Assembly: GCF_014836555.1 (NCBI RefSeq)
Contig: NZ_JACSQQ010000006.1
Span: 86,954-131,194 of the forward strand
Reading direction: 5' to 3'
Source of the DNA: Oerskovia rustica
GTDB lineage: Bacteria; Actinomycetota; Actinomycetes; Actinomycetales; Cellulomonadaceae
Length of the DNA: 44,241 bases
The notes under the pieces are model-generated. The model searched no databases and was not told where the DNA came from. It saw only the letters and a program-made list of their open reading frames with translations. Numbering within the stretch: the first letter of the stretch is position 1; every line of letters begins with the position of its first letter. The translations under genes were made by a program, and so were the position numbers. Of this stretch, positions 1,850 through 44,161 are shown in pieces.

Positions 1850-4132
1850 ATGACCAGCATTTCCGAGGCTCGCGGCACCACTGGCGGCCAGGACGACGCG
1901 ACAGTCCCCGCATGGGCAGGCTTCACCGCAGGTCCCTGGCAGGACACGGTCGACGTGCGCGACTTCATCCAGCGCAACTACACCCCGTACGAGGGTGACG
2001 ACTCCTTCCTCGCCGGACCGACGGAGCGCACGACCGGCATCTGGGCCAAGCTCTCCGAGATGTTCCCCGCCGAGCGCGAGAAGGGCATCTACGACGTCGA
2101 CCCGCACACGCCCGCCGGCATCACGGCGCACGCACCCGGGTACATCGACAAGGACTCCGAGGTCATCGTCGGCCTCCAGACCGACGCCCCGCTCAAGCGC
2201 GCGATCATGCCGAACGGCGGATGGCGCATGGTCGAGGGCGCGCTCGAGACCTACGGCTACCCGGTCGACCAGGAGCTCAAGAAGGTCTTCAGCGAGTACC
2301 GCAAGACCCACAACCAGGGCGTCTTCGACATCTACCCGCCGAACGTCCGCGCCGCGCGCAGCTCGCACATCATCACGGGCCTGCCCGACGCCTACGGCCG
2401 CGGCCGCATCATCGGTGACTACCGCCGCGTCGCGCTCTACGGTGTCGACCAGCTCGTCGCCGCCAAGAAGCTCGACAAGCTGGACCTCGACACCCAGCCG
2501 TTCAGCGAGAAGATCGTGCGCGAGCGCGAGGAGCACGCGGAGCAGATCCGTGCGCTCGGCGAGCTCAAGGCGATGGCCGCCTCGTACGGCTACGACATCT
2601 CGGGCCCGGCCACCAACGCCCGCGAGGCCGTCCAGTGGCTCTACTTCGGCTACCTCGCCGCGGTCAAGGAGCAGAACGGCGCCGCGATGTCGCTGGGCCG
2701 CACCTCGACCTTCCTCGACGTGTACCTCGAGCGCGACCTGGCCGCCGGTGTCATCACCGAGGAGCAGGCGCAGGAGATCATCGACGACTTCGTCATCAAG
2801 CTGCGGATCGTGCGCTTCCTGCGCACCCCGGAGTACGACTCCCTGTTCTCGGGCGACCCGACGTGGGTCACCGAGACCATCGGTGGCATGGGCGACGACG
2901 GTCGTCCGCTCGTCACGAAGAACTCGTTCCGCTTCCTGCAGACGCTGTACAACCTGGGCCCGGCCCCCGAGCCCAACATGACCGTCTTCTGGAGCCCGCG
3001 CCTGCCGCAGGGGTTCAAGGACTTCTGCGCCAAGGTCTCGATCGACACCTCGGCCGTCCAGTACGAGTCGGACGAGCAGATCCGTCCGGCCTGGGGTGAC
3101 GACGCCGCGATCGCGTGCTGCGTCTCGCCCATGGCGGTCGGCAAGCAGATGCAGTTCTTCGGTGCCCGCGTGAACCTCGCCAAGACCCTCCTGTACGCCA
3201 TCAACGGCGGCAAGGACGAGGTCACGGGCAAGCAGGTGTCCCCGGTCGTCGCCCCCGTGCCCGAGGGCCAGCCCCTCGACTACGACGACGTCCGCGCCCG
3301 CTTCGACAAGACGATGGACTGGCTCGCCGAGACCTACGTCGAGGCGCTCAACTGCATCCACTGGTCGCACGACAAGTACGCCTACGAGCGTCTCGAGATG
3401 GCCCTCCACGACAAGGAGGTCCTGCGGACCATGGCCTGCGGCATCGCGGGTCTCGCGGTCGCGGCGGACTCCCTGTCGGCCATCAGGTACGCCAAGGTCA
3501 CGCCCGTGTTCGACGAGCGCGGCATCGTGGTCGACTACGTGACCGAGGGCGACTACCCGGCCTACGGCAACGACGACGACCGCGTCGACTCGATCGCGGT
3601 CGAGCTCGTCGAGTCGTTCATGGCGAAGATCCGTTCGCACAAGATGTACCGCGACGCCCTGCCGACGCAGTCCGTCCTGACCATCACGTCGAACGTCGTC
3701 TACGGCAAGGCCACGGGCAACACGCCTGACGGCCGCCGCGCGGGCGAGCCCTTCTCGCCGGGTGCCAACCCGATGAACGGGCGCGACACGCACGGCATGC
3801 TCGCCTCGGCCCTGTCGGTCGCGAAGCTGCCGTACAACGAGGCGCAGGACGGCATCTCGCTGACCAACACGGTCGTCCCGAGCGGCCTGGGCCGTACCCG
3901 GGACGAGCAGGTCGCGAACCTCGCGGGTCTGCTCGACGCGTCGGTCGGTGGCGACGGCTACCACATGAACGTCAACGTGCTGGTGAAGGAGACTCTCGAG
4001 GACGCCATGGAGCACCCCGAGAACTACCCGCAGCTCACCATCCGTGTCTCCGGGTACGCCGTGAACTTCGTGCGGCTCACCCGCGAGCAGCAGCTCGACG
4101 TCCTCTCGCGGACCTTCCACGGCGCTCTCTGA
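1850..4132 (+). CDS. pflB: Formate acetyltransferase (pyruvate formate-lyase)
   Basis: A 760-aa glycyl-radical enzyme that cleaves pyruvate with CoA to acetyl-CoA and formate during fermentation. Length equals that of the E. coli enzyme. The adjacent active-site cysteines are C423-C424 in IACCVSPM, and the radical glycine is G735 in RVSGYAVNF near the C-terminus. The ATG at 1850 is chosen over an in-frame GTG at 1829 because GAGGAG sits 6-7 nt ahead of it. pflA follows after 21 bp on the same strand, so the two are probably co-transcribed. The upstream hypoxia/redox-type sites suggest anaerobic induction. The radical site would be destroyed by oxygen if active in air. Confidence 0.97.
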
Positions 4133-4153
4133 GCGCAGAACGGCGGAACCATC

Positions 4154-5164
4154 ATGACGACTCTCTCGACGCCCGCAGCAGGCCAGGTGCCCGCGCGTGC
4201 CGCCGCCCGCTACGGGGTCGACGGGGTCGCCTCGGCTCCGCTGCCGTGGCGGACCTCCGGTGACGGCCTGGGTCACGACAGCGACCTGGACGCACCGGAG
4301 GCCCCCCGCCGCCGGACGGGGGCCGGCGTCTCGGGCCTTTCGACGGCCGAGGACCTCGACCGGCACGACAAGCTCGCGATGATGCGCTCGGGCGAGCTCG
4401 GCTCCGTGCACTCCTGGGAGCTCGTGACCGCGGTGGACGGCCCGGGCACGCGCCTGACGGTCTTCCTCAACGGGTGCCCGTTGCGGTGCCTGTACTGCCA
4501 CAACCCCGACACCCTGCAGATGAAGGACGGGGAGCCGGTCACGGCCGACGAGCTCCTGGCTCGCATCAAGCGGTACCTGCCGGTCTTCCGCGCCACCAAG
4601 GGCGGGCTGACCCTCTCGGGCGGCGAGGTGCTCATGCAGCCCGCGTTCGCCGCCCGCATCCTGCGGGGTGCCAAGGAGATGGGCGTGCACACCACGCTCG
4701 ACACCTCGGGCTTCCTCGGGGCGAACCTGAGCGACGAGATGCTCGCGGACACCGACCTGGTGCTGCTCGACGTCAAGTCGGGTGACGCCGCGACGTACGA
4801 GAAGGTCACGGGCCGCGCCCTGGAGCCGACCCTGAAGTTCGGCCGGCGTCTGGCCGAGTCGGGCCTGCCCGGCGGTGTCACGGCAGAGCGCCCCGTCGAG
4901 GTCTGGGTCCGGTACGTGCTGGTCCCGGGCCTGACCGACCAGGCCGAGCACGTCGACGTCGTCGCGGACTACGCCGCCTCGCTCAACGAGATCCGGCCCG
5001 GCACGGTCACCCGGGTCGAGGTCCTGCCCTTCCACCAGATGGGCCGTGACAAGTGGGAGACGCTCGGGCGCGAGTACGAGCTCACCGACACCCCCGCGCC
5101 CGACGTCGAGCTGGTCGATCGTGTGCGCGACCAGTTCCGCGCGAAGGGCCTCACGGTCTACTGA
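4154..5164 (+). CDS. pflA: Pyruvate formate-lyase activating enzyme
   Basis: A radical-SAM activase that abstracts hydrogen from the PflB glycine using SAM and a [4Fe-4S] cluster. The cluster ligands are C108, C112 and C115 in GCPLRCLYCHNPDT, followed by TLSGGEVLMQP. At 336 aa it is much longer than E. coli PflA (about 246 aa). Residues 1-75 form a polar Ala/Gly/Arg-rich extension before the conserved core, which begins near GSVHSWELVTAVDGPGTR. The start at 4154 is in good coding context. A shorter protein from M76 or M77 is possible, but no ribosome site is obvious there. Confidence 0.95.
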   Translation: MTTLSTPAAGQVPARAAARYGVDGVASAPLPWRTSGDGLGHDSDLDAPEAPRRRTGAGVSGLSTAEDLDRHDKLAMMRSGELGSVHSWELVTAVDGPGTRLTVFLNGCPLRCLYCHNPDTLQMKDGEPVTADELLARIKRYLPVFRATKGGLTLSGGEVLMQPAFAARILRGAKEMGVHTTLDTSGFLGANLSDEMLADTDLVLLDVKSGDAATYEKVTGRALEPTLKFGRRLAESGLPGGVTAERPVEVWVRYVLVPGLTDQAEHVDVVADYAASLNEIRPGTVTRVEVLPFHQMGRDKWETLGREYELTDTPAPDVELVDRVRDQFRAKGLTVY

Positions 5165-35682: not shown

Positions 35683-36049
35683 GTTTCTGCTCCTCGGTAG
35701 CTCGACTCGTCCGGCGGCACCCTGCCGGCCGGACCTGAGGAGGGTGATTCCCCAGGCAGTGCCCCCACGTGCGGCCGTGGATCACCGAGCGTGCCCTTCC
35801 CGGTGGGTGGCCCGCGCTCGGTGCTTCGGTGCTGGAGTCGTGCCCTGGCGTCGTCGACAGGGGTGCTCCGCGTCACACCGTCCCACGGGTGGTCGCACCG
35901 TGCGCGGCGAGAAGGGCCGGGTCTCGGATGCTGGCGGGGCAGGGGCTCGTCCGGCGCAGAGAGCGGTGCCGGACGCCGGTCGTGGCCGACGCCTCGTGAG
36001 GTCGCGAGCATGAGAAAAGGCCGTCCCGGTGGGGGACGGCCTTTCGTGG
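35683..36049. other. Intergenic region before the tRNA operons
   Basis: About 367 bp with no supported gene. It carries the unseen promoter of the 326-aa gene at its left end and the tRNA operon terminator (36016-36044) at its right end. No att-like repeat or integrase was found. Confidence 0.5.
36016..36044 (-). terminator. Terminator of tRNA operon copy 1
   Basis: A 12-bp stem (AAAGGCCGTCCC / GGGACGGCCTTT) with a 5-nt loop. On the transcribed minus strand it ends in CCTTTTCTC, an intrinsic-type terminator. Confidence 0.85.
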
Positions 36050-36124
36050 TGGTGGGCGATACTGGGATCGAACCAGTGACCTCTTCCGTGTCAGGGAAGC
36101 GCGCTACCGCTGCGCCAATCGCCC
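36050..36124 (-). tRNA. tRNA-Val(GAC), copy 1
   Basis: The minus strand folds as a tRNA with acceptor GGGCGAT/ATCGCCC. The anticodon loop CTGACAC between CTTCC and GGAAG gives GAC (valine). The 3' CCA is encoded (36050-36052). Third gene of the Gly-Cys-Val operon. Confidence 0.95.
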
Positions 36125-36172
36125 AGGGCTGATCTGCGAGAGAACAGCGCAAGGGGGTACTGCTGTGCTGAG

Positions 36173-36243
36173 AGGTGGAGATGGGATTCGAACCCACGTG
36201 CACGGCTTTGCAGGCCGCTGCCTCGCCTCTCGGCCACTCCACC
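36173..36243 (-). tRNA. tRNA-Cys(GCA), copy 1
   Basis: Acceptor GGTGGAG/CTCCACC, anticodon loop CTGCAAA between CGGC and GCCG, anticodon GCA (cysteine). Length 71 nt without CCA, which is not encoded. Middle gene of the operon. Confidence 0.95.
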
Positions 36244-36276
36244 AGGTCGAACCCGACAGGTCCGAAGACCTATCCG

Positions 36277-36348
36277 AGCGGACGACGGGATTCGAACCCG
36301 CGACCCTCACCTTGGCAAGGTGATGCTCTACCACTGAGCCACGTCCGC
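36277..36348 (-). tRNA. tRNA-Gly(GCC), copy 1
   Basis: Acceptor GCGGACG/CGTCCGC, anticodon loop TTGCCAA between TCACC and GGTGA, anticodon GCC (glycine). CCA is not encoded. First gene transcribed. Confidence 0.95.
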
Positions 36349-36396
36349 GCTGCCGACCTCGACCGGATCTCTCCGGCGTTTTTCGGCGCGTCACAG

Positions 36397-36427
36397 ACTC
36401 TAGCCGACAGATGGGGCAAGAGTCCAA
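36397..36427 (-). promoter_or_regulatory. Promoter of tRNA operon copy 1
   Basis: TTGGAC (36422-36427), 19-bp spacer, TAGAGT (36397-36402). Transcription would start about 40 nt before tRNA-Gly. Confidence 0.65.
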
Positions 36428-36660
36428 ATAGCCCCAGGTGAGAGGGGTGGAGGGCCTGGTTCTCGCGAGTCGCTGCCCGTGGAGGGGGCGAAAGGGGCCG
36501 TCCGGGGGCTCGGTCGAGCTCGGTCGACGCGGAGTCGCCGCGCGAGGCCGCCGCCGGCAGGTTCACGTCGGCGGGAGCAGCGGCGTGGGGCCGGTGTCAC
36601 AGGTCTGGCGGCACGGGTCTGGCCGTGCAGGTCCGGAACGTCAGAAGCCCGGGAACGCCG

Positions 36661-36689
36661 AAAGGCCGTCCCGGTGGGGGACGGCCTTT
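36661..36689 (-). terminator. Terminator of tRNA operon copy 2
   Basis: Same 12-bp hairpin as in copy 1, but followed on the minus strand by CGGCG instead of a T-rich tail, because the repeat ends there. Confidence 0.75.
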
Positions 36690-36694
36690 CGTGG

Positions 36695-36769
36695 TGGTGG
36701 GCGATACTGGGATCGAACCAGTGACCTCTTCCGTGTCAGGGAAGCGCGCTACCGCTGCGCCAATCGCCC
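36695..36769 (-). tRNA. tRNA-Val(GAC), copy 2
   Basis: Identical to the copy at 36050-36124, including the encoded CCA. Confidence 0.95.
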
Positions 36770-36817
36770 AGGGCTGATCTGCGAGAGAACAGCGCAAGGG
36801 GGTACTGCTGTGCTGAG

Positions 36818-36888
36818 AGGTGGAGATGGGATTCGAACCCACGTGCACGGCTTTGCAGGCCGCTGCCTCGCCTCTCGGCCACTCCACC
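36818..36888 (-). tRNA. tRNA-Cys(GCA), copy 2
   Basis: Identical to the copy at 36173-36243. Confidence 0.95.
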
Positions 36889-36921
36889 AGGTCGAACCCG
36901 ACAGGTCCGAAGACCTATCCG

Positions 36922-36993
36922 AGCGGACGACGGGATTCGAACCCGCGACCCTCACCTTGGCAAGGTGATGCTCTACCACTGAGCCACGTCCGC
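36922..36993 (-). tRNA. tRNA-Gly(GCC), copy 2
   Basis: Identical to the copy at 36277-36348. Confidence 0.95.
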
Positions 36994-41711: not shown

Positions 41712-41912
41712 CCATCGAACTGATGCTCGCGCGGTCCCCGTCACCGACGGCCCGGAGTCGGCGTCGACGGTGACCTCTCCCTGACGACCGCTCAGCCCTC
41801 CTCCGCGCCCTCTCGGCCCGAACCCGTTCCCCGCGGCCCCGCCCCCTCCGTACGTTCGCCGTGTCACCGAGCGCTCGACCGAGAACGCTCGACCAGCACA
41901 CGAGGAGACGAC

Positions 41913-43103
41913 ATGAGACGGCGCGGGAAGATCACCTGGGGGATCACGGGAGGCGCCATGGCGCTGCTCCTGGCGGGAGCCGGAGCGCTGGCGTACGCGA
42001 ACCGTCCCCTCTCGCGGGCGCAGGTCGACCAGGCCGTCGAGGAGCGGCTGCGCGACGCCGTCGCGGGCGACCCGACGCTCTCCAACGCGTTGCTCACGGT
42101 GTACTCGGGTCCGGAGGACCGGCTCCTGCAGTACGCGGTCGGCACCGAGCGGGCGGGCAGCGACGTCCCCGCGCGGACCGACAGCCCGTACCACTCGGCG
42201 AGCGTGGGCAAGACGATGCTCGCGGCCGTCTACGGGCAGCTCGTCGACGAGGGCACGCTCACGTTCGACGACCCGGTCGCGGCCTGGCTGGACGCCGAGA
42301 CCCTCGCCGACCTGTTCGTGGTCGACGGCACGGACCACGCGGCCGAGGTGACGGTCGGGCAGCTCCTGGCGCACACGTCGGGCGTGGCCGACTACTTCGA
42401 AGGGCCGGTGACCTCGGGCGTACCGGTCCTGGAGCAGGTCGCGGCCGACCCGGACCACCTCTTCACGGCCCAGGAGCTGGTCGCGTTCTCGCGGGACCAC
42501 CAGGAGCCGGTCGGTGTCCCGGGGGAGACGTTCGCCTACTCCGACACCGGCTACCTGCTCCTGGGGCTCGCGCTCGAGCGCATCGAGGGCGCGCCCTACG
42601 CGCAGGTCCTCGACGACCGCCTGTTCACGCCCCTCGGCATGGCCGGCAGCCGCCTCCTGACCGAGTTCGGCGAGGGCACGGACATCCTGTCCCTGACGGC
42701 CGACGGCGTCGACATCAGTCGGCGGAACGCGCTCTCGGTCGACTGGGCGGGCGGGGGAGTGGTGACCACGATGGACGACCTGCTGCTCTTCCTGCGGGCG
42801 CTCATGGGCGGCGACCTCGTCTCGGACGAGACGCTCGCCACCCTCACGAGGTTCGAGCACGACGTGGACAAGGGCATCGGCTACGGCATGGGCATCATGC
42901 AGTTCCGTTTCTCGGAGCTCTCACCGCTCCTGTTCGCGATGTCCGACGTGCACGGCGCGGTCGGCGCCACCGGGACGTACGCGCTGTACGATCCGAGCGG
43001 CGACACGTACTACATCGCGAACTTCGGCTCGCTCGACCACCGCCAGAAGGCGATCGAGGAGCTGGTGCAGGTCCGGTTGCTGGTCGACCGCCTGCGGGAC
43101 TAG
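41913..43103 (+). CDS. Serine hydrolase, beta-lactamase/PBP fold
   Basis: A 396-aa class C beta-lactamase-fold hydrolase, probably a peptidase or esterase outside the membrane. One N-terminal hydrophobic segment (about 8-29), after a basic start, acts as signal or anchor. The SxxK motif is S97-V-G-K100. The tyrosine motif reads YSD (209-211) instead of YxN. The C-terminal HGAVGATGTYALYD block replaces the KTG-like box. It is divergent from marR and precedes the LytTR gene by 28 bp. Substrate unknown. Confidence 0.85.
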   Translation: MRRRGKITWGITGGAMALLLAGAGALAYANRPLSRAQVDQAVEERLRDAVAGDPTLSNALLTVYSGPEDRLLQYAVGTERAGSDVPARTDSPYHSASVGKTMLAAVYGQLVDEGTLTFDDPVAAWLDAETLADLFVVDGTDHAAEVTVGQLLAHTSGVADYFEGPVTSGVPVLEQVAADPDHLFTAQELVAFSRDHQEPVGVPGETFAYSDTGYLLLGLALERIEGAPYAQVLDDRLFTPLGMAGSRLLTEFGEGTDILSLTADGVDISRRNALSVDWAGGGVVTTMDDLLLFLRALMGGDLVSDETLATLTRFEHDVDKGIGYGMGIMQFRFSELSPLLFAMSDVHGAVGATGTYALYDPSGDTYYIANFGSLDHRQKAIEELVQVRLLVDRLRD

Positions 43104-43131: not shown

Positions 43132-43671
43132 ATGGTGCAGCTGGTCTGCTCGCCAGCGGTGGCGGAGCGGCTCCGTCGGGAGCTCGCCGCCGTCGGGATC
43201 GCCGTCGACGACGACGGGTGGACTCTCGTGGAGCGCGGCTTCGACGTCCCCGCGGGCAGTCCCGCCGTCGTGTTCGACCCGCTCGACCACGTCGAGGTCG
43301 TGCGGATGCTCGCGACAGGGCTGCGCGAGGGGACCACGGGTCCGCCCCGGATGCTCACGGGCCAGAGCGGCAGCTCGTTCATGGTCATCGCACCGCGTGA
43401 GGTGCGCTACTTCGAGGCCGCTGCTGACGGGATCGTCGCGTGCACCGCCACCGGGCGCTACCGGGTGCGCGAGACGTTGGCGCACTACGAGTCGGCCTGG
43501 GCCGGGCTGGGGTTCCTCCGCGTGAACAAGTCGCAGCTCGCGAACCTCCTGCACGTGACCGAGATCGTGCCCTGGTTCAACTCGCGCTACGTGCTCCGCC
43601 TCACCGGTGGCGCCGAGCTCGAGGTGTCCAAGACCTACGCCAAGCGCCTGCGCAGCGCGCTGAAGATGTGA
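43132..43671 (+). CDS. LytTR-domain DNA-binding regulator
   Basis: A 179-aa protein whose C-terminal 100 residues are a LytTR domain: GSSFMVIAPREVRYFEAAADG, then FLRVNKSQLANLLHVTEIVPWFNSRYVLRLTGG and SKTYAKRLRSAL. The first 75 residues are not a CheY receiver, so it is not a normal response regulator. Free-standing LytTR proteins of this kind are often paired with a small membrane protein that restrains them, and such a gene follows after 10 bp with a strong GGAGGA site. Confidence 0.85.
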   Translation: MVQLVCSPAVAERLRRELAAVGIAVDDDGWTLVERGFDVPAGSPAVVFDPLDHVEVVRMLATGLREGTTGPPRMLTGQSGSSFMVIAPREVRYFEAAADGIVACTATGRYRVRETLAHYESAWAGLGFLRVNKSQLANLLHVTEIVPWFNSRYVLRLTGGAELEVSKTYAKRLRSALKM

Positions 43672-43681
43672 GGAGGAACGT

Positions 43682-44161
43682 ATGAACTTCCGGAACGTCG
43701 TGAGCTCGTTCTTCCTCGGCCTGGGGATCGGCGTCGTCGTGATCCTGGCGAACCCTGGCGCGGGCGACCCGGGGCTGTGGGCGCTGACGGTTCTGGCGAG
43801 CGGTGGCATCGGGCTGCTCGTGGGGCTGGTCACCGAGTGGCTCACGTCGCTGCTGCCGATCCGGCTCGCCCGCCCCCGCACCTACTTCCTCCTCAACGGG
43901 CTCGTCGCGCTCGTGACGACGGCCGCGATCATGCTGGGCCTCGCGGGGCTGGCCGCCGGGACGGGGGCGGGGGCCGGACCGCAGGGTGCTGCGCGGGACT
44001 GGTGGCCCGTCGTCGGGCTCGTGCTGGCCATCGTCGTCGTCGCGAACGTCGCCGACTACCTGGTGTTCCGCTGGACGAGGGCGCGGCTGCGCAGGATGCA
44101 GGCGTCGCTCGGCCAGGCTTCTCGTGAGCAGGGGTCGGCCGAGCCGCCCGACGCGGACTGA
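43682..44161 (+). CDS. Four-helix membrane protein, DUF3021-like
   Basis: A 159-aa integral membrane protein with four hydrophobic segments (about 7-24, 32-54, 66-92 and 104-128) and a short polar C-terminal tail. Topology, size and position after a LytTR gene match DUF3021-type proteins, which act with LytTR regulators as membrane-bound partners or inhibitors in other bacteria. The family call rests on these features, not on a motif. Confidence 0.7.
   Translation: MNFRNVVSSFFLGLGIGVVVILANPGAGDPGLWALTVLASGGIGLLVGLVTEWLTSLLPIRLARPRTYFLLNGLVALVTTAAIMLGLAGLAAGTGAGAGPQGAARDWWPVVGLVLAIVVVANVADYLVFRWTRARLRRMQASLGQASREQGSAEPPDAD

Follow-up and report, generated by a model that had tools for sequence, protein, structure and literature searches.

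A serine hydrolase gene precedes a receiver-less LytTR regulator and its putative membrane partner in Oerskovia rustica

What does a LytTR regulator without a receiver domain control in an actinobacterium, and which genes belong with it? The window analysed here, a stretch of 44,241 nt from Oerskovia rustica, carries near its end a LytTR gene with a membrane-protein gene directly behind it, a pair which a sequence-only reading had likened to the LytTR regulatory systems (LRS) HdrRM and BrsRM. The coding features are as follows:

41913..43103, + strand: S12 serine hydrolase (beta-lactamase/DD-peptidase fold family), 396 aa, first gene of the unit (PF00144, 5.1e-43)
43132..43671, + strand: LytTR-family regulator, 179 aa (PF04397 match, 35-row alignment, model with mean pLDDT 88.6)
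43132..43356, + strand: N-terminal segment of the regulator, residues 1-75 (no Pfam family; predicted beta-alpha-beta-beta-alpha)
43378..43662, + strand: LytTR DNA-binding domain of the regulator, residues 83-177 (PF04397; fold match 3d6w)
43682..44161, + strand: four-helix membrane protein, putative inhibitor/sensor partner, 159 aa (predicted helices, AlphaFold2 model)

Gene order and distribution

Judged by gene order, the unit is made up of three genes beginning with the hydrolase, not two. Relatives were collected by a scan of the regulator alignment against the genomes of 84,980 species, seeded by two short peptide patterns, with which members can be missed, and 80 of the 90 relatives were taken. 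Thirty-five of these (L042-L076) are full-length, matching residues 1-179 or nearly so with 46-95% identity in the best segment; the other 45, with 22-33% identity, cover the LytTR domain and no more than a portion of the remaining residues. The order hydrolase-regulator-membrane protein is found in all 35 full-length relatives. Conservation of the pair in relatives was one of the points on which the sequence-only reading had staked its proposal, and there it holds, as does the suggestion that the hydrolase is part of the unit.

The full-length relatives comprise 22 Paenibacillus, two Oerskovia, two Leucobacter, Kineosporia, Microbacterium, Neobacillus, Lysinibacillus, Acetoanaerobium and Anaerovorax, the last three of the 35 being other Firmicutes or Clostridiales assemblies. 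With 22 of 35 members in Paenibacillus, the trio is no actinobacterial speciality. In a regulator tree of 37 rows a branch with 100/100 support separates the nine actinobacterial rows from Bacilli and Clostridia. Identities across the first five orthologues are 60-95% for the regulator (95% in Oerskovia turbata) and 41-91% for the membrane protein, which indicates that both are real genes.

Spacing is narrow as well. The hydrolase stop lies 28 bp before the regulator start in the window, and distances of 24-93 bp between hydrolase and LytTR gene and of 7-15 bp between LytTR and membrane-protein gene each recur in 36 of 38 sequences, the remaining values (2 of 38 each) coming from frames that were mis-called by the script or are disrupted. 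When flanking ORFs were clustered all-against-all, the three trio clusters held 35 loci each; the next ones (17, 11 and 4 loci) look, by position and two examples, like antisense frames of the trio, and any other among the 14 largest clusters listed reached at most 5 loci. The three proteins agree in their pairwise distances, with r 0.93-0.96 (35 sets, without L044, L070 and L076), or 0.86-0.90 within Firmicutes, a correlation equally expected from plain joint descent.

The membrane-protein alignment (31 rows) leaves out L044, whose protein was mis-started by the script and is found by tblastn at 51%, and L059, L068, L070 and L076 (near-copy thinning or disruption). The hydrolase alignment (31 rows) is without L070 and L076, as well as L053, L059 and L068 (near-copy thinning or disruption), and the regulator alignment (35 rows) is without L076. 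In L076 an IS605-type TnpB-like gene (3701-4819; PF07282 1.7e-19, PF01385 3e-15) is inserted between hydrolase and regulator, and the LytTR frame is broken. In L070 (3787-4955, the same place as G964:C31) the hydrolase is in two frames, which may represent sequencing error or decay; the reading frames of regulator and membrane protein are uninterrupted there.

Could the hydrolase be a plain wall-maintenance enzyme with an unrelated LytTR pair that merely happens to lie behind it? Among 119 genomes sampled from the Paenibacillus order, the regulator was present in three and a close hydrolase in the same three; this hydrolase scores 729 bits in one genome, 714 bits in another and matches as two pieces (408 and 251 bits) in the third. 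Ten of the 119 contain only distant hydrolases (L161-L170; 256-366 bits, listed at E <= 1e-60), which form a more distant S12 group, and no regulator of the trio clade at E <= 1e-20, as incidental co-location would have it. Against this stand the conserved order of all three genes in 35 relatives from two phyla and the position of the promoter repeats before the hydrolase (see below), and we regard chance proximity as very improbable.

Of seven genomes sampled from the genus, four carry the trio, which stands together in the window and in the congeners G002 and G005. G001, G004 and G006 lack, genome-wide, the membrane gene and a full-length regulator. The hydrolase was sought at the syntenic place: in G004 a MarR gene lies directly beside the CBS gene with no hydrolase, in G001 there is neither MarR nor hydrolase, and in G006 (L188 9541-10054) an N-terminal hydrolase fragment stands alone beside the CBS gene, with a repeat-like sequence upstream, by eye. 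The MarR and MATE neighbours were rejected as members of the unit: the regions retrieved from G017, G222 and G003 showed neither of them next to the trio, and G004 has them but lacks the trio. The three trio genes also lie side by side in G017 and G222.

The encoded proteins

All 31 aligned hydrolases match PF00144, and S97, G99, K100 and Y209-S210-D211 (SxxK, YSD) are invariant in all 31 rows; as far as sequence can tell, the catalytic motifs are intact. The best solved relatives of the hydrolase profile are an alkaline D-peptidase (4y7p, 1.6e-36) and DD-carboxypeptidases, among them that of Streptomyces R61 (1cef, 2.1e-30). These S12 peptidases have the SxxK motif in common with the hydrolase, whereas all five aligned solved S12 relatives have YSN in place of its YSD. 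Identity as a class C beta-lactamase was rejected since NCBIfam scores lie far below the cut-offs (e.g. bla_class_C, 27.6 versus 415 bits; 25 of 32 matches listed). According to PMC9541196 the D-stereospecific peptidase BogQ also belongs to S12, and it is likened to the hydrolase here by that family assignment. Unlike 4y7p, 1cef and BogQ, the hydrolase has a dedicated LytTR regulator and membrane partner. Its N-terminus contains a hydrophobic stretch, presumably a membrane anchor, followed by a conserved NRPxS segment.

The regulator matches PF04397 over residues 83-177 (1.4e-20; 73.8 bits, cut-off 22.6), the only Pfam family above cut-off, and there is no receiver domain among its Pfam matches at E <= 1, in agreement with its earlier description as a receiver-less LytTR protein. 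The regulators of all 35 full-length relatives match LytTR, and none of the 12 families listed for them at E <= 1 is a receiver family. The modelled LytTR domain superposes on 3d6w (Z 19.2, rmsd 1.3, 109 residues). Residues 1-75 match no Pfam family above cut-off in either the window protein or its relatives, and contain many conserved positions in the alignment of 35 rows. A shrunken receiver domain might lie here, to judge by weak fold matches to ComE (4cbv; Z 11.6, rmsd 8.0, whole chain), BaeR (4b09; Z 6.1, 64 residues) and NAD kinases (Z up to 8.3), but the profile score of the N-terminal segment against 32 receiver-LytTR proteins chosen by a motif rule (13.5) fell inside the controls (10.7-17.5). 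With this score and no Pfam receiver, the protein does not qualify as a two-component response regulator with LytTR output. Cys6 (window 43147-43149) is nearly invariant in the 35-row alignment and possibly has a redox or structural role.

For the third protein, AlphaFold2 predicts four helices (residues 3-23, 30-57, 65-93 and 107-152; mean pLDDT 85.3), and its ORF begins 10 bp 3' of the regulator, preceded by GGAGG; the four-helix membrane protein read from the letters is thus borne out by the model. Its proposed check against DUF3021 gave another result: the window protein has no match to DUF3021 (PF11457) at E <= 1, nor to any Pfam family, and membership was rejected as below the Pfam cut-off. 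Five of 31 relatives match DUF3021 at E <= 1 (best 3.9e-4), and unrelated families match as many or more of them, although with weaker best E-values (Peptidase_U4, 9; DUF4500, 7; COX14, 7; DUF3169, 6; LPG_synthase_TM, 5). Comparison of the membrane-protein and DUF3021 profiles by hhalign gave a score of 29.4 (probability 34%, 134 columns), against 21.7 for the reversed control and 10.0-15.0 for five column-shuffled ones; three actinobacterial DUF3021 proteins gave 20.8. Kinship with DUF3021, judged from such profiles, is weak and unproven. NCBIfam yielded nothing at E <= 0.1 for the window protein and weak, scattered matches for its relatives, of which a model for an ECF riboflavin transporter was the best shared (12 of 31; lowest E-value 6.2e-4), and a fold search with the AlphaFold2 model had no match at E <= 0.001. 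Conservation extends over TEWLTSxLPI-x2-A-x2-R-x-YF, the segment joining helices 2 and 3, and over N-x2-D-Y in helix 4, followed in most relatives by RRxQ, which the Oerskovia turbata group replaces by RWTR. If both termini are cytoplasmic, these stretches would face the side of the regulator.

The helices in this model are joined by short links only, which would leave little surface for sensing. Perhaps, then, the hydrolase is the sensor as well as an output, its binding or acylation by a beta-lactam, D-peptide or wall fragment being relayed via the membrane protein to the regulator. In beta-lactam induction by BlaR1/BlaI a penicillin-binding-like module is coupled to hydrolase transcription; the trio could share this logic with other parts, having a LytTR regulator and a four-helix protein instead of a metalloprotease and a BlaI-type repressor. 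The place of the hydrolase before the regulator in all 35 full-length relatives and its hydrophobic N-terminus with the NRPxS segment fit such a role. Its invariant catalytic residues, however, are equally explained by an enzyme output, and PMC6193735 describes LRS that have no hydrolase, so that we consider a sensing hydrolase possible but rather unlikely.

Promoter repeats and predicted targets

The sequence upstream of the hydrolase contains the following features:

41786..41794, + strand: direct repeat 1, GACCGCTCA, putative LytTR half-site (score 23/27, attained by 2 of 200 shuffles, p 0.01)
41807..41815, + strand: direct repeat 2, GCCCTCTCG, 12 bp after repeat 1 (aligned upstream regions; genome pattern search)
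41826..41831, + strand: putative -35-like box, GTTCCC, 10 bp after repeat 2 (position in the aligned upstream regions)
41851..41856, + strand: putative -10-like box, TACGTT, 19 bp after the -35-like box (aligned upstream regions)

These 9-12-9 repeats precede the hydrolase, not the regulator. In 29 Firmicutes relatives the majority bases read GTCATCTTA-12-GACCACTTA, then 10 bp, the -35-like box, 18 bp and TAGATT. In published LRS the repeats resemble ACCACTTAC-12 bp-ACCACTTAC and are in most cases separated from the -35 by 10 bp (PMC6193735, Tables 2 and 3), and the layout upstream of the hydrolase equals that in Table 3 of the same source. Repeats of 9 bp lying 11-13 bp apart and about 10 bp before a -35, by which LRS are recognised, are thus found at 41786-41815, the -35 being placed by position.

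With a half-site scoring devised after these sequences had been seen, 33 of 38 upstream regions reached shuffle p <= 0.05 (200 shuffles each), those missing it being L073, L028, L053, L058 and L075. L049 is among the 33, at another place; its site was placed by hand in the aligned upstream regions. A 21-bp period scored higher than 12 other periods in 30 of the 38 regions, equal in three (L073, L028, L058) and lower in five (L044, L053, L067, L069, L075). Around the best half-site of 36 regions this period gave 5.36 of 9 matches versus 1.56-4.08 at other periods of 12-35 bp, among which 14 bp (4.08), 33 bp (3.67) and 13 bp (3.39) were raised.

How many targets would such a site define? In the genome of the window a pattern built from Oerskovia sites has one perfect match, at the trio promoter; allowing one mismatch adds one site and allowing two adds 27, a total of 29 against 10 for the reversed control. 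The single-mismatch, repeat-like site (G000:C22:54991-55020) could be a second target or chance. A strict Firmicutes pattern occurs exactly once, by coordinates at the trio promoter, in four of six relatives' genomes; the other two have no match even at their own operon, where the sites deviate, and the reversed pattern matched once in one of the six. Because of these two unmatched genomes and the one control match, divergent further targets may exist. Patterns of this strictness reveal no broad regulon and make the operon the probable main target of its own regulator, so that the operon itself, and hence the hydrolase, would be the main output.

Proposed switch and its relation to known systems

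Taken with the gene order, these observations make it fairly probable that the trio is a self-activating operon of the LRS type which regulates its own surface enzyme. In the resting state, by analogy with the LRS of Streptococcus mutans, the four-helix protein would bind the LytTR regulator at the membrane and keep it off the DNA. This inhibition would be relieved by an envelope signal that probably has to do with the hydrolase substrate or with a compound acting on wall or membrane. The freed regulator would bind the direct repeat just upstream of the -35 and switch on all three genes, presumably co-transcribed, giving more hydrolase, more regulator and more inhibitor. As the main output the hydrolase, anchored outside the membrane by its N-terminal stretch, would likely act on D-amino-acid-containing peptides or peptidoglycan stems.

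The comparison with LRS from which the sequence-only reading started stands in part. In HdrRM, BrsRM and other LRS (PMC6193735) a small membrane-protein gene directly follows a receiver-less LytTR gene, and 9-bp direct repeats lie mostly 12 bp apart and about 10 bp before the -35, all in common with the trio. The trio differs in its extra first gene, the S12 hydrolase, before which the repeats sit, and in its membrane protein, which has no DUF3021 match above cut-off, unlike the DUF3021-type LRS partner. Against ten DUF3021-paired regulators the profile of the trio regulator matches over approximately residues 50-179, the first 50 or so being unmatched. HdrR and BrsR also drive bacteriocin genes, whereas under strict patterns the trio has no wider set of repeat sites. 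The conserved linked partner of the SMU_433/434 and SMU_1070c/1069c LRS is an ABC transporter (PMC6193735); that of the trio is the hydrolase.

The repeats of hdrRM mediate autoactivation, as demonstrated by EMSA and reporters (PMC6193735, section 7), and membrane sequestration is cited for LRS in PMC13384398. The latter source also describes full-length HigX of Caulobacter, which regulates its own promoter and whose transmembrane part is argued to act positively. The trio membrane protein might similarly be an activator, or an anchor needed for activity, instead of an inhibitor. HigX, however, is a fused protein, while the separate membrane proteins of the S. mutans LRS are inhibitors (PMC6193735) and the promoter layout of the trio is the same as theirs; we consider an activating role distinctly unlikely. 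On the preferred reading of an inhibitor-controlled operon, the LRS switch may exist mainly to turn on the hydrolase.

A more far-reaching and doubtful version would make the anchored hydrolase, the four-helix transducer and the LytTR activator one envelope-sensing complex with itself as sole transcriptional target, an inducible switch for D-peptide or beta-lactam detoxification or wall repair without BlaR1/BlaI or two-component parts.

LRS are known, also from actinobacteria, four of which are listed in Table 3 of PMC6193735; in 2018 the only characterised ones were those of S. mutans (same source). No hydrolase-linked LRS was met in searches of the open-licence PMC literature or in the sections and passages of PMC6193735 consulted, and as far as this literature goes the S12-hydrolase-linked form is taken to be new. 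LRS are widespread and the signals that they sense mostly unknown. The trio ties an LRS to one enzyme of known fold with, in sequence, intact catalytic motifs, and the predicted site is single in the genomes where the strict pattern matched; together these offer a direct handle, from hydrolase substrate to inducer or the reverse. If correct, the proposal would describe a compact inducible switch for a surface enzyme in non-model Gram-positive bacteria.

The regulator had no tblastn match among plasmids at 1e-20, and PADLOC gave no anti-phage defence match at E <= 0.01. The last letters of the window, up to 44241, are a run of C, directly after which the contig continues with a short stretch of undetermined bases (L025 from about 2196), so that the assembly has a gap close behind the membrane gene. 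Elsewhere in the window a perfect direct repeat of 300 nt is present at 36016-36315 and 36661-36960, the copies 645 bp apart; 300 may be the length limit of the method, and our impression is that the frames at 36016-36960 read like tRNA-adjacent sequence.
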